Assembly: GCF_004792515.1 (NCBI RefSeq)
Contig: NZ_CP038865.1
Span: forward strand, 1,744,501 to 1,808,500
Length of the DNA stretch: 64,000 nt
Reading direction: 5' to 3'
DNA from: Vagococcus xieshaowenii
Lineage (GTDB): Bacteria > Bacillota > Bacilli > Lactobacillales > Vagococcaceae
The position numbers and the translations under genes are program-made. Within the stretch, counting starts at the first letter, position 1. Every line of letters begins with the position of its first letter. Positions 3,490-34,215 of this stretch are shown piece after piece. The notes under the pieces were generated by a model. It did no database searches, was not told the DNA's origin, and saw only the letters and a list, made by a program, of their open reading frames with translations.

Positions 3490-4246
3490 AAATCATAACC
3501 ACCCGTCAAACGGCTGGTTTGCACTGAGGCTATAAGCCTCTACTACTAACCAGCGTCTCAAGGCGCTGGCTTTTCACTTTGTTCAAGCCACATTGGTTTT
3601 GCCGCTTTCGCCACCTCTTCAGAGGTGTGTGTATCACTTTCTAACCCTTAAAAGGGTCATTATATTCTCGGGTTGTCAATTTATCTATCACCATATCGTG
3701 TTTTTCTTGCTCTTGAATATATTTTTTTATGGTGGCTTCATTTAAACCTACTGTACTTACATAATACCCTTCTGACCAAAAGTGTCGATTTCCAAATTTA
3801 TATTTTAAATTTGCGTGCTTATCAAACATCATTAAGGCACTTTTCCCTTTTAAATATCCCATAAATTGTGACACGCTAAGTTTTGGTGGAATACTTACCA
3901 AGATATGAACATGATCTGGCATCAAATGTCCTTCAATTATTTCTACTCCTTTATAGCTGCATAATCTCCGAAAGTTTTCAATTAAGCTTTCTCGATATTG
4001 ATTATAAATGATTTTTCTTCTATACTTTGGAGTAAAGACAATATGATATTTACACATCCATTTTGTGTGAGATAAACTATTTGTTTTATTTGCCAATCTA
4101 ATCTCTTCCTTTCATTTACAATATGGCCTGAACACCTATATTGTAATGTAAAAGAAGAGATTCTTTGTATAACCGTTTGCCATTCCACCCGCATAGCAGG
4201 TGGTTTTTTGTTTCGCACGCTACGCGAGCTCAACTGGGTCTAAAGA
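3490..4246 (-). mobile_element. IS200/IS605-family insertion sequence, IS200 type (approximate ends)
   Basis: A single-ORF element with tnpA only and no tnpB. Family-type subterminal hairpins flank the gene. On one side, near 3500-3640, several short GC-rich stems occur, for example AACCAGCG...CGCTGG around 3548-3570. On the tnpA start side, CCACCCGC...GGTGG lies around 4186-4210. The family inserts without terminal inverted repeats or target duplication, so I place the ends only to within about 20 bp. It sits between the ROK terminator and the csp terminator and breaks no visible gene. Confidence 0.75.
3641..4096 (-). CDS. tnpA: IS200/IS605-family HUH transposase TnpA
   Basis: 151 residues, full length for the Y1 single-strand transposase family. 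The HUH metal motif is seen as PDHVHILVS (His62 and His64), and the catalytic tyrosine is Tyr126 in KKYIQEQ. N-terminal HTKWMCKYHIVFTPKYRRK is the conserved family opening. This enzyme excises and inserts the element as single-stranded DNA, recognising subterminal hairpins. The frame is intact, so the copy may be active. Confidence 0.95.
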   Translation of the reverse strand: MANKTNSLSHTKWMCKYHIVFTPKYRRKIIYNQYRESLIENFRRLCSYKGVEIIEGHLMPDHVHILVSIPPKLSVSQFMGYLKGKSALMMFDKHANLKYKFGNRHFWSEGYYVSTVGLNEATIKKYIQEQEKHDMVIDKLTTREYNDPFKG

Positions 4247-13827: not shown

Positions 13828-14004
13828 CATGATGAGGTAGAGGTCGCGGTAATTAAGAATGATGGTCGAGTTTGAGGAAACAAAGACACTATCAGGAGGG
13901 AAAACCGCCGAAATGTATACTAGCCTCACTAGTATATGTTGGGACAACAGTTAATAGCTGTTGGACTGTCTCAGTCTGCGAAGATTGAGTTGCGCTATTT
14001 TTGT
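13828..14004 (+). promoter_or_regulatory. Lysine riboswitch (L-box) aptamer
   Basis: Conserved L-box blocks appear in order: GAGGTAGAGGTCGCGG (13834-13849), GGAGGGAAAACCGCCGAA (13895-13912), GTTGGGACAACAG near 13938-13950, and the closing GAGTTGCGCTAT (13987-13998). P1 pairs AGGTAG with CTATTT. The 5' strand ATGAGGT (13832-13838) is also complementary to ACCTCAT of the downstream terminator (14035-14041), so lysine binding should free the terminator: an OFF switch. It precedes an amino-acid ABC transporter. Confidence 0.92.
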
Positions 14005-14032
14005 CAGCTAGGCAATTAGAATGTAAACGTTC

Positions 14033-19019: not shown

Positions 19020-20426
19020 ATGGAAACAATCAATTGGACAAAGGAAGTTGAGAATCGTCAAGAACAGTTAATGTCTGACCTATTTGATTTATTAAGCATT
19101 AATAGTATTAAAGACGTTGAACACAAAACAGATGATATGCCTTTAGGACCAGGACCAGCAAAAGCATTATTTAAATTTTTAGAAATTGCTGAACGTGATG
19201 GATTTGTAACAAAAAACATTGAAAATGTTGCAGGACATATTGAATTTGGTGAAGGTGATGAAACATTAGGAATTTTAGGTCACGTTGACGTGGTTCCTGT
19301 TGATGATAATTGGGATAGCGATCCTTTCAAACCTGAAATTCGTGACGGCAAACTATATGCTCGTGGTTCTAGCGATGATAAAGGACCTTCAATGGCAGCA
19401 TATTACGCACTTAAAATTATTAAAGATTTAGGATTACCTACTTCTAAAAAAGTAAGATTTATTATCGGAACAGATGAAGAAAGTGGTTGGTATTGTATGG
19501 ATCGCTATCAAGCGAACGAAAAAATGCCAGACTTTGGTTTCTCTCCAGATGCTCAATTCCCAATTATCAATGGCGAAAAAGGGTTATCTACTTTTGATGT
19601 GAACTTTAATTTACCTGTTACAACTGATGGTAATTACCAATTAACCTCTTTCACAGCAGGTTTACGTACTAATATGGTACCTGGTGATGCACACGCAACG
19701 TTATTAGTAAATCAAAAAGATGATACATTAGAAGAACGCTTTAACGCTTTCTTAGCTGACAATAATTTACAAGGTAGCCTTACTTCTAATGACAACAACG
19801 TAACATTAGAAGTTATTGGTAAAGCGGCTCATGCTCAAAATCCAAAAGCAGGTGTAAATGCTGCGACTTTCTTAGCTACTTTCTTAGCTAACGAAGCATT
19901 AGATGCATCTGGTAAAGAATATGTCTCTACGACAGCTAAATTCTTACACAATGACCCTTCTGGTGAATTAACAGGTATTAACCATACTGATAGCGTGATG
20001 GGTGAATTAACATCAAGCCCTAATATTTTTGCTTACACACCTGGAGAAGAACAATTAATTTCGATTAATATTCGTTTCCCTCAAGGTATTGATGCTGAAA
20101 CAATCATTAAAAACTTATCAGCAACATTCCCTAACGCAACAGTTGCTCCTCAAGCTGGTTTACAAGGACCTCACTATGTATCAGCTGATGATGAATTAGT
20201 TAAAACATTATTAGAAGTATACGAAGAACATACTGGCCAAAAAGGTGCAGAAAAAACAATTGGTGGCGGAACATACGGACGTCTATTCGAACGCGGTGTT
20301 GCTTATGGCGCATTATTCCCAGGACGCGAAGATGTTATGCACCAAGCAAATGAATACATGCATGTCGAAGATATTTACAAATCTGCTATTATTTATGCAG
20401 ATGCCATTTATCGTTTAATCAAATAG
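19020..20426 (+). CDS. pepV: Dipeptidase PepV, M20 metallopeptidase
   Basis: 468 residues, the usual PepV length. It hydrolyses dipeptides in the cytosol, part of peptide use by lactic acid bacteria. Zinc ligands and catalytic residues are visible in LGHVDVVPVDDNWDSDPF (His, Asp), ARGSSDDKGP (bridging Asp), GTDEESGW (catalytic Glu pair), FSPDAQFP (Asp) and MHQANEYMHVED near the end (His). The next gene is an OPT-type peptide transporter, so uptake and cleavage may be linked. A cre-like site lies upstream. Confidence 0.95.
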   Translation: METINWTKEVENRQEQLMSDLFDLLSINSIKDVEHKTDDMPLGPGPAKALFKFLEIAERDGFVTKNIENVAGHIEFGEGDETLGILGHVDVVPVDDNWDSDPFKPEIRDGKLYARGSSDDKGPSMAAYYALKIIKDLGLPTSKKVRFIIGTDEESGWYCMDRYQANEKMPDFGFSPDAQFPIINGEKGLSTFDVNFNLPVTTDGNYQLTSFTAGLRTNMVPGDAHATLLVNQKDDTLEERFNAFLADNNLQGSLTSNDNNVTLEVIGKAAHAQNPKAGVNAATFLATFLANEALDASGKEYVSTTAKFLHNDPSGELTGINHTDSVMGELTSSPNIFAYTPGEEQLISINIRFPQGIDAETIIKNLSATFPNATVAPQAGLQGPHYVSADDELVKTLLEVYEEHTGQKGAEKTIGGGTYGRLFERGVAYGALFPGREDVMHQANEYMHVEDIYKSAIIYADAIYRLIK

Positions 20427-20456
20427 ACACTGTATACCTACTCATTAAAGTAAATG

Positions 20457-20526
20457 GTGTGACAATAAGCAGAACTCGACAAAAATCACTCGTAATTTTT
20501 GAACGAGTTCTCTTATTGTCCAACAC
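20457..20526 (+). other. Long imperfect stem-loop between pepV and the OPT gene
   Basis: GTGTGACAATAAG (20457-20469) pairs with CTTATTGTCCAACAC (20512-20526) apart from two unpaired bases. Inside, AACTCG pairs with CGAGTT and AAAAAT with ATTTTT, so nearly the whole 70 nt folds. No T-run follows, so it is not a classical terminator. It may act as a processing or stability element between pepV and the transporter. Confidence 0.5.
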
Positions 20527-20565
20527 TATTTATCTTAAAAAATAAATTAATGGAGGAATTTGTAC

Positions 20566-31829: not shown

Positions 31830-32684
31830 TTACTGATTAATCGTTCTCACTAAATGAACTTCCTTACAAAAACCACGAAACGCATTATACACACGTTTAG
31901 CACGTGAATAATTTTGACACAAACCAAAAACAGTGGGACCACTACCACTCATTAATGCCGCATCTGCTCCGTATTTAAGCATCTTGTCTTTAATTTCTCT
32001 TACCACTGGACGACGCATCATTGTCGCACGTTCCATTGAATTGCCCATCAAACTAATCATTTTATCGTAATCTTGTTCAATGATACTTGCTTTTAAACCT
32101 TGAATATCTGGATGTTCAATTCCTCGCATATCAAAATCCGCAAAAATCTTGCGAGTAGAGACACTAAACTGGGGCTTTACAATCACAACCCAACATTGTG
32201 GCATCGCTGGAATTGGCTGTACAATTTCACCACGACCAGCTACAAAGGCAGTTGTCCCATGAACACAATACGGGACGTCCGTTCCAACCTGAAAACCAAT
32301 CGCGCTCATTTCTTCTGTAGTCAAACCGAGATTCCATAACTTGTTAACCCCTCTTAGAACAGCAGCCGCATCACTACTACCCCCGCCAAGTCCAGCAGCT
32401 ACAGGAATCGTCTTTTTAATTTCAACAGACAGACCTTGTTTAATACCGAATTGCTCTTTTACTAGCGACACTGCTTGATACACATTATTCTTCTCATCCA
32501 CGGGTAAAAAAGTCGCATTTGTTCGTACGATAATCTGGTCCTTTGGCAATTCATTGATTATTAACTTATCTGCTAAATCGACACTTGCCATAATCATTTC
32601 TAGGTCATGATAGCCATCTTCACGCTTACGAAGAACATCTAAGCCTAGATTGATTTTAGCTGGCGCTTTTTCAATGATTTCCAT
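31830..32684 (-). CDS. ispE: 4-diphosphocytidyl-2-C-methyl-D-erythritol kinase (IspE)
   Basis: 284 residues of the GHMP kinase family. KAPAKINLGLDVLRKREDGYHDL is the IspE opening (given across residues 5-27), with the ATP loop PVAAGLGGGSSDAAAVL and the C-terminal MSGSGPTVFG. It phosphorylates CDP-methylerythritol in the MEP isoprenoid route. Most Lactobacillales use the mevalonate route instead and may carry ispE as an orphan; no other MEP gene is in the window. The start at ATG 32684 has AAGGA 9 bp upstream and is preferred to the TTG three codons earlier. Confidence 0.92.
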   Translation of the reverse strand: MEIIEKAPAKINLGLDVLRKREDGYHDLEMIMASVDLADKLIINELPKDQIIVRTNATFLPVDEKNNVYQAVSLVKEQFGIKQGLSVEIKKTIPVAAGLGGGSSDAAAVLRGVNKLWNLGLTTEEMSAIGFQVGTDVPYCVHGTTAFVAGRGEIVQPIPAMPQCWVVIVKPQFSVSTRKIFADFDMRGIEHPDIQGLKASIIEQDYDKMISLMGNSMERATMMRRPVVREIKDKMLKYGADAALMSGSGPTVFGLCQNYSRAKRVYNAFRGFCKEVHLVRTINQ

Positions 32685-32784
32685 AGCTATCAATCCTTAC
32701 TAAATTTTATTAAGTTCATGATAACATATTTTAATAGTTGAGAAACTAAAAAAGAGCTTCAAACCAGCACGCTTATAAAAAAAT

Positions 32785-32817
32785 AAACAAAGTGATGACA
32801 AAATCATCACTTTGTTT
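32785..32817 (-). terminator. Terminator of the pot operon
   Basis: A perfect 14-bp stem AAACAAAGTGATGA/TCATCACTTTGTTT, loop CAAAA. The leftward U-tract is the A-run 32777-32783. It lies 325 bp beyond potD, so the tandem repeats fall in the operon's 3' untranslated region. Confidence 0.88.
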
Positions 32818-32885
32818 GTGGATTTGGTATTAGCTAGAAGAGACTTGTAGATATTCTGTAGCTTTCAAACAAAAGTTAAAAGCAT

Positions 32886-33141
32886 CCTCAAGCACTTTTC
32901 TCAATCCGGCTTTCGGAGGCTACTTTTTTCGACAATATGTTGTGACTCTCAAAAATTGTTGTACCATTTTCGTCGTCCCACGCATATTGCTCAAAAGTAA
33001 ACCGCCCCCTCAAGCACTTTTCTCAATCCGGCTTTCGGAGGCTACTTTTTTCGACAATATGTTGTGACTCTCAAAAATTGTTGTACCATTTTCGTCGTCC
33101 CACGCATATTGCTCAAAAGTAAACCGCTCCTCAAGCACTTT
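32886..33141 (-). repeat. Tandem ~121-bp repeat abutting the potD stop codon
   Basis: Two nearly identical units, 32886-33007 (122 bp) and 33008-33128 (121 bp), plus the first 13 bp of a third unit up to the potD stop. They differ only around the joint. Read leftward, each unit holds an open frame; in the unit next to potD it begins directly after the TAG, in potD's own frame, and runs 43 codons (33141-33013) before TGA, with YAWDDENGTTIFESHNIL in its centre. A degraded further unit may precede 32886. The unit has small internal inverted repeats (ACAAT...ATTGT, CCG...CGG) but no clear terminal repeats. I do not know the family. Confidence 0.85.
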
Positions 33142-34215
33142 CTAGTTCCGATGCATCTTAAATTCTAAGAATAATTCATTATAAATACTTAGATAATCTA
33201 AGCCTAAATCTTCGTAAACTTCTAAATTATTAATGACTTCATCACTTGGATAAAATTGTTCATCGCTAGTGATTTCTTCAGGCATTAAGGCTAAAGCTTT
33301 TTTATTTGGTGTAGCATAACCAATATATTCAGCATTTTGTGCCGCATTTTCTGGCTCCAACATGAAATTAATAAAGTCATACGCACCATCAATATTTTTA
33401 GCGGTTTTAGGGATTACAATGTTATCAAACCATAGATTAGACCCTTCATTTGGGATCACATAGTGTAAATGTTCATTGCTATCAACCATTTCAGAGGCTT
33501 CTCCTGAAAATGTTACCGCAACTGTTGCTTCTTCATTAATCATATACATTTTGATTTCATCAGCAACAATCGCCTTGACACTTCCAGTTAATCGACTTAA
33601 TTTTTCTGATGCTTGTTTTAATTCCTTATCGTCTGTACTGTTCAATGAGTGACCGTCACTATTCAAGGCTAAGCCCATCACTTCACGAGCCCCATCAATT
33701 AACATCAAACTATTATGAACTTCTGGCTTCCACAAGTCATCCCAATGCTGAATATCTTCTTCATTGAATTGTTTATCATTATAAATAATTCCTAGCGTAC
33801 CCCAGAAATAAGGAATCGAGTATTGATTCCCTGGATCAAAATCTAAATTTAAGAAACGTGGATCGATTTCATCAATCCCTTTGATTTTAGAATAATCTAG
33901 AGGATGTAACATCTCTTCTTTCATCATTTTCTGAATCATGTATTCACTTGGAATCGTTAAGTCATAAGACGTTCCACCTTGTTTAATTTTGGTAAACATC
34001 GCTTCATTTGAGTCAAATGTTTCATAACTTACTTTATAACCTGTTTCTTGCTCGAATTTCTTAATTAAATCAGGGTCAATGTAGTCTCCCCAGTTATAAA
34101 TCGTTAAGGTATTGCTACCCGTATGACCTTGTGAGGTACGCATATGACGACCTGTAAAGAAGAGTACTGCAATAATGGCAATAATGCCGATTAAAAGAAC
34201 TTTTAATTTTTTCAT
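33142..34215 (-). CDS. potD: Spermidine/putrescine ABC transporter substrate-binding protein PotD
   Basis: 357 residues. A hydrophobic N-terminal segment (about 5-21) leads to LTIYNWGDYIDPDLIKKFE, the classic polyamine-binding opening. FWGTLGIIYND, GAREVMGLALN and SNLWFDNIVIPKTAKN follow. It captures polyamines outside the membrane. There is no lipobox cysteine after the hydrophobic segment, so it may be held by an uncleaved anchor rather than a lipid. The ATG overlaps the potC stop by 4 bp, indicating translational coupling. The stop codon adjoins a repeat unit. Confidence 0.95.
   Translation of the reverse strand: MKKLKVLLIGIIAIIAVLFFTGRHMRTSQGHTGSNTLTIYNWGDYIDPDLIKKFEQETGYKVSYETFDSNEAMFTKIKQGGTSYDLTIPSEYMIQKMMKEEMLHPLDYSKIKGIDEIDPRFLNLDFDPGNQYSIPYFWGTLGIIYNDKQFNEEDIQHWDDLWKPEVHNSLMLIDGAREVMGLALNSDGHSLNSTDDKELKQASEKLSRLTGSVKAIVADEIKMYMINEEATVAVTFSGEASEMVDSNEHLHYVIPNEGSNLWFDNIVIPKTAKNIDGAYDFINFMLEPENAAQNAEYIGYATPNKKALALMPEEITSDEQFYPSDEVINNLEVYEDLGLDYLSIYNELFLEFKMHRN

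Follow-up and report, generated by a model that had tools for sequence, protein, structure and literature searches.

Likely EFAR-type structured repeats, arrayed behind the stop codon of potD and of other genes in Vagococcus xieshaowenii and a congener

The repeat array behind potD

The window analyzed here is a stretch of 64,000 nucleotides (nt) from V. xieshaowenii (contig NZ_CP038865.1, positions 1,744,501 to 1,808,500). On its minus strand the TAG stop codon of potD is followed by two near-identical units of 121/122 nt, then by a truncated third unit and a terminator-like stem (Table 1). The name potD is presumptive, having been taken from the operon context both by an earlier reading of this DNA from the sequence alone and by us; the ispE-like label of the next gene is likewise our assumption, based on its sequence. 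Orthologs of potD were present in all six of the six genomes searched.

Behind the TAG the order is AAAGTGCTTGA, a hairpin, AAAGCCGGATT, four bases, AAAGTGCTTGA again, a second hairpin with the same ending, and a third AAAGTGCTTGA; all three copies of this linker lie on the minus strand. The start-to-start spacing is 122 and then 121 nt, with the gene-proximal unit having one base fewer than its neighbor. Units 1 and 2 are 98% identical, and a comparison of direct copies of 122 nt at 32870–32991 and 32992–33113 gives 96% identity without gaps. When the 368-nt stretch of the array was folded it had a z-score of -4.6, and none of 100 shuffled sequences was as stable. The sequence-only reading had described near-identical units and a partial third between the potD stop codon and a terminator, and the coordinates, the threefold linker and the terminator-like stem confirm this description.

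Table 1. Features of the potD array, its neighborhood and a palindrome elsewhere in the window (window positions)
Feature	Positions	Strand	Basis and remarks
potD, predicted spermidine/putrescine-binding protein	33142..34215	-	ORF; stop codon TAG at 33142-33144
Gene-end linker AAAGTGCTTGA directly behind the potD stop codon	33131..33141	-	
Unit 1, gene-proximal hairpin with its linker	33025..33141	-	covariance model match, 106 bits
Unit 2, second hairpin, linker at 33010-33020	32903..33020	-	covariance model match, 115 bits
Third linker (32888-32898) with 5' fragment of truncated third unit	32855..32898	-	model match, 15 bits, E 0.13
Terminator-like stem downstream of the potD array	32785..32817	-	15 pairs, loop of 3, T-rich tail
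Downstream gene, same direction as potD, presumably ispE-like	31830..32693	-	ORF
Possible distant or decayed relative, strong palindrome	20434..20548	.	30 bits on +, 23 bits on -; z = -7.1

Dispersal and kinship of the repeat

A blastn search with the unit returned 8 matches in the V. xieshaowenii genome itself (G000) and, when restricted to the genus, 28 in the congener G003; over 60 genomes, G000 included, matches were confined to these two. Plasmid relatives of the window unit were not found by blastn. The exact linker pattern was absent from viral contigs and gave seven single matches in unrelated taxa, which we take for chance, in a genome contig collection from which records near G000 may be absent. 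A covariance model (R1) was built from 54 aligned units. It started from 57 candidates, of which three were dropped before alignment (in our judgment, two were truncated and one was a chance hit inside a gene), and the pattern used to collect units missed some real units of G000 and G003. At E <= 0.01 the model matches 30 times in G000 and 47 times in G003 (22 and 43 above 49 bits), with no match in the congeners G001 and G002.

The matches form 39 arrays or single elements, 14 in G000 and 25 in G003, leaving out five weak antisense matches and a 30-bit match at window position 20448. The palindrome at 20434–20548 starts a few bases behind the stop codon of the gene at 19020–20426 and is perhaps a decayed or distant relative of the element. 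The proposal of a dispersed repeat family beside stop codons is thus upheld by 13 arrays or single elements that V. xieshaowenii has besides that of potD and by the 25 of the congener, with 34 of the 39 located at a sense stop codon, and the search of this and related genomes for further copies shows that the unit is not private to the potD site. A private tandem duplication or an assembly artefact would account for the close identity of the two potD units, as just one other array among the 54 units has so alike a pair; with 39 arrays in two genomes, and with another unit at the potD site of the congener, we give this explanation practically no chance. The near-identity of the two potD units remains a local event.

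In an order-wide search the model matched 60 of 295 sampled genomes (G000 and G003 included) in 22 of 74 genera, whereas phylum-wide it matched only 1 of 398 genomes, which was G000. These runs used stricter filters, with at most 12 (order) and 9 (phylum) candidates scored per genome, and their per-genome counts are lower bounds. No match occurs in 235 of the 295 genomes sampled from the order, nor in two of the four congeners, so the element is dispensable. In the window, no Rfam 15 family matched the repeat at gathering score. Relaxed Rfam searches of six loci, five of them in other genera, returned over the element only unrelated families far below gathering score (best 37 bits versus 107). 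Elsewhere in the window, a lysine riboswitch (RF00168) lies at 13830–14005 (91.7 bits).

In 747 kb of a record named Enterococcus faecalis (NZ_CP143580.1) the model has nine full matches and one partial antisense match (best E 2.4e-15), and in another record, whose host is E. faecalis, three full and one partial antisense. In 10 of these 12 full elements a hairpin of ~118 nt is followed by a common second hairpin of ~60 nt, for about 175 nt in total. A plasmid named Lactiplantibacillus plantarum carries one element, 21 nt behind the aspT stop codon. Several elements each also occur in "phage" records without annotation such as OR846588.1 (hosts E. faecalis and Listeria); these may be host contigs and were not counted as phage evidence.

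These features recall EFAR/Efa-1, the original description of EFAR being reportedly that of Venditti in 2007. EFAR/Efa-1 has two independent stem-loops in an L-shape and integrates into stem-loop targets; its second stem-loop is absent from the window array. Published accounts describe Efa-1 as a dispersed E. faecalis repeat of 163 bp with 65 copies in the published genome (PMC2267715), place Efa elements near the 3' ends of coding sequences in E. faecalis (PMC1590033), and class EFAR as a MITE of enterococci (PMC3733652). The likeness is that the model built from our genus matches E. faecalis elements, and that both are long irregular hairpins, dispersed and at gene 3' ends. The matched E. 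faecalis elements, at ~175 nt with the second hairpin, compare with the 163 bp that those accounts give for Efa-1, and the location near coding-sequence 3' ends that they report is shared by 34 of 39 arrays here and by 23 of 48 elements of other genera. What sets the present form apart from that of E. faecalis is the array of hairpins, a linker (AAAGTGMTTGA / CCGGATT) that we saw in no other genus, exact abutment to the stop codon in 15 of 35 cases, and a truncated distal unit. Two single elements, G000:C1:493296-493416 and G003:C1:61420-61537, end in ACCGTTT like those of other genera and are followed by a terminator-like hairpin.

Because the model matches E. faecalis elements in a form that fits EFAR/Efa-1, we regard the element as EFAR-type. 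This kinship fits on the grounds of model match, size, place and host, and not of letter identity with published EFAR. We consider it likely that the repeat is an EFAR-type structured repeat, in an array form with its own linker, in 3' untranslated regions (UTRs). To our knowledge the repeat is known in print only from enterococci, and no account of such arrays from other genera came up in the open-licence literature that we searched.

Structure, placement and turnover of the units

On the sense strand each unit is predicted to fold into a short stem formed by the linker, opposed G-A steps, a variable closing stem, a bulge of ~4 bases, a second G-A loop and a long upper stem. RNAalifold predicted 30 pairs over the 54 units, 23 of which show at least one compensatory change. 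In particular, a linker base and its right-arm counterpart form a C-G pair in 36 of the 54 units and an A-U pair in the remaining 18, with no exception, and the nine units of four arrays in which both types occur obey this rule too. Within the genus, most bases at the unpaired G-A positions and in the bulge are conserved (0.57–1.00 per column) compared with variable stem columns that go down to 0.35. For other genera we aligned 48 elements, after dropping four antisense matches of 52 and keeping one row that contains N letters; compensatory changes appear in 25 of the 30 pairs, in an alignment that the model guided and that is biased toward the model's structure, and the consensus at the G-A loops and the bulge is similar. 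The structured element that had been proposed between stop codon and terminator is borne out by this hairpin prediction with its compensatory changes, and it sits ahead of the terminator-like stem of potD.

In the 48 elements of other genera G-U type pairs outnumber A-C type ones by 65 to 6, which points to the sense strand, and coding-strand deamination could add to the G-U excess. Inside the genus the imbalance is weaker (48 to 31). The minimum free energy is lower on the sense than on the antisense strand in 46 of 54 units, but shuffle z-scores do not favor sense (median -5.9 for antisense versus -5.2 for sense). Among five unit pairs compared between G000 and G003, two of which stem from a locus duplicated in G000 and are not clear orthologs, substitutions fall on 20 of 401 paired versus 20 of 184 unpaired positions. 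The changes within base pairs are not mainly compensatory, with 12 pairs broken and 6 kept. This last ratio, along with the long perfect stems of some elements in other genera, would agree with quasi-palindrome correction (template switching), rather than structural selection, as the source of the paired changes. Such correction should, however, make mismatches vanish, yet the bases of the G-A loops and bulge are mostly conserved, and we consider it an unlikely source of the covariation.

The placement of the arrays is sharply defined. A sense stop codon lies within -30 to +15 nt of the start in 34 of the 39 arrays, while an antisense stop codon occupies the same window at the far end in one. 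In 35 arrays a sense frame of 70 or more codons ends near the start (four have no such frame), and in 34 of these 35 the stop lies between -11 and +11 nt. Abutment is exact in 15 of the 35, where the stop codon ends at +2 from the first A of AAAGTG, which puts AGTGMTTGA, or a sequence differing from it by one base, directly behind the TAA or TAG. In other genera, 23 of 48 elements lie within 30 nt of a sense stop codon and two within that distance of an antisense one.

We compared orthologous gene ends, located by a joined-query search, by eye. In the two closest genomes the last codon of the protein is the same whether or not the array is present at 15 of 17 sites, and at the other two the ends differ by one codon. 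Against the more distant congeners G001 or G002 the protein ends one codon earlier at five of eight loci and at the same codon at three. In one small gene, also judged by eye, the last two codons and the stop come from the element (KKGD and stop, versus KKEDQ and stop in G001). In at least 6 of 17 comparisons made by eye, a recognizably similar terminator stands downstream whether the array is there or not, most sites being unclear; an example of a terminator kept without the array is the site of G003 685975 in G000. This suggests insertion beside the terminator.

Arrays follow a pattern of n hairpins and mostly n+1 linkers, and unit numbers differ at linkers between the congeners. After the last full unit there is a further linker in 31 of 39 arrays and a 5' fragment in 26 of 39. 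The unit farthest from the gene is in most cases a remnant cut short at its 3' end. In the array at G000 1960032, two units are flanked by two copies of GCATAAAGTGATTGA, where G003 has one GCATAAAGTGATTGA and no unit; this gene ends differently in G001 and G002. At the site of G003 1435717, one linker and a fragment remain in G000. At G000:C1:1332831-1332935 two units have lost their hairpin interiors, with closing stems that can still pair, and the congener has both in full.

Internal linkers are more similar within arrays (0.59) than between them (0.38). They also resemble the end of the local gene. Internal linkers agree with gene-end bases at 98 of 212 positions (shuffled 81.0, sd 6.3, p 0.006), and the linker dinucleotide agrees with the gene end in 46 of 53 cases (shuffled 36.4, sd 2.2), both against shuffles that ignore the orthology of some arrays. 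This test covered 53 linkers in 29 arrays, three of the 39 arrays having been excluded by name and seven of the remaining 36 having no internal linker.

Units at the same site can differ between the two congeners. The potD site of G003 has one unit of another type that is 0.67–0.68 identical to those of G000, compared with 0.84 for the 150 nt upstream, and in G001, G002 and G004–G006 no linker lies directly behind the potD stop codon. Similarly, the units at G000 1686962 and G003 1878473 are 0.67–0.69 identical. Three units lie at sites that are clearly orthologous between G000 and G003, with identities of 1.00, 0.93 and 0.92; the 150 nt before them are 0.89–0.93 identical and the 100 nt after them 0.54–0.61. 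Two further unit pairs (0.87 and 0.91) involve the locus duplicated in G000, and the other units at orthologous sites differ (0.56–0.76).

Reading frames, mobility and possible role

The frame after the potD TAG does stay open for 43 codons, from 33141 to a TGA at 33010–33012, as the sequence-only reading had said. It had also proposed that the repeat could supply C-terminal tails when a stop is lost, and the 43 open codons themselves favor a tail or a reading frame in register with the repeat. So does the next frame, which is open in 14 of 54 units versus 4.2 expected after shuffling, all of them with the C-type linker; we saw no gene that uses it. The third frame is open in none of the 54 (1.2 expected). 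However, the potD frame itself is open in one of 54 units versus 5.3 expected after shuffling, which rules out a coding tail in this frame as a property of the family, and the single open unit is the one adjacent to potD. Unit lengths are spread over all three phases (31, 7 and 16 units), and 81 of 83 indels are of 1–2 nt. The 43-codon frame is accidental and private to the potD-adjacent unit, and a tail in register with the repeat retains next to none of our credence. Of the earlier interpretation, the dispersed family at stop codons and the structured element stand and the C-terminal tails do not.

We believe that the most likely role of the units is that of mobile 3'-UTR hairpins. The units adjoin the stop codon, follow the direction of the gene and precede its terminator; given this position and orientation, transcription should place them one after another as hairpins in the 3' UTR of the mRNA. 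Arrays gain units at linkers and lose them between linkers, and the linkers are similar to the end of the local gene. The units may be moved by an enzyme that acts in trans. By analogy with REP hairpins, which shield mRNA 3' ends, the hairpins might affect mRNA decay by shielding the 3' end. A benefit to the host through mRNA stability is a tentative proposal; with just three units clear at a shared site, we put its chance somewhat below even.

On a purely selfish reading, the miniature element would have no host function at all, its place being what survives selection and its pairing being needed for mobility only. The patchy presence in 60 of 295 genomes is what such an element would show, as are the different units at one site in two congeners (at potD 0.67–0.68, with 0.84 in the upstream 150 nt), the remnants with internal deletions, and the sites that hold just a linker and a fragment. 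Against it, the three units at clearly orthologous sites are conserved like the sequence upstream of them and the 100 nt after them are not, and sense orientation in 34 of 39 arrays with exact abutment in 15 of 35 is tighter than mere gene avoidance requires; we judge the chance of this reading to be close to even, falling a little short of it. Alternatively, the hairpin could act at the DNA level as in attC or REP, where a single strand is the recombinase substrate and the RNA form is incidental. Conserved bases at unpaired stem places would agree with this, as would n hairpins with mostly n+1 linkers and unit numbers that differ at linkers between congeners. Orientation nevertheless follows the gene, with both orientations found in both chromosome halves of G003, taken without reference to the origin, and G003 has no match to the Y1 transposase domain (Y1_Tnp). 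The 65 to 6 excess of G-U over A-C in other genera opposes a two-stranded cruciform, though not a single sense strand. Taken together, we regard an exclusively DNA-level hairpin as improbable.

REP/BIME elements are, like the present ones, extragenic hairpins at gene ends that form arrays, and an effect on mRNA stability is expected of both; they differ in that units here are ~110 nt versus 20–40 bp and sense-oriented, and in that no Y1_Tnp match exists in G003, the genome with the most copies (43 model matches above 49 bits). On the absence of this match we rejected the REP/RAYT system. The V. xieshaowenii genome has six Y1_Tnp matches, and searches for this domain in G000 and G003 revealed no mobilizing enzyme for the element. 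One of the six, an IS200/IS605-type transposase match, lies in the window at 3707–4063 (G000:C1:1748207-1748563). Integron attC sites are imperfect hairpins with conserved unpaired bases, arrayed behind stop codons. The present units share these traits, but the genes here are ordinary chromosomal genes with orthologs at array-free sites. BOX elements are modular. BOX and RUP of Streptococcus pneumoniae are listed among dispersed intergenic structured repeats (PMC2267715), a likeness to our repeat in description.

The broadest reading would be that of an order-wide class of mobile structured RNAs that target stop codons, inserting in sense orientation at the native stop or no more than about a codon from it, repeating gene-end bases, and forming 3'-UTR arrays that tune mRNA life gene by gene. 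We hold this to be speculative and rather unlikely; if it were true, a coupling of insertion to transcription or translation would account for both the precise place and the orientation. What the analysis offers is a structured element that occurs in 22 of the 74 genera sampled from the order, with no Rfam match in the searches made and a sharp placement rule. A family model could spare annotators the small accidental frames inside units. Moreover, array-bearing and array-free sites in close congeners make the question of whether the hairpins serve mRNA stability or are selfish directly testable.
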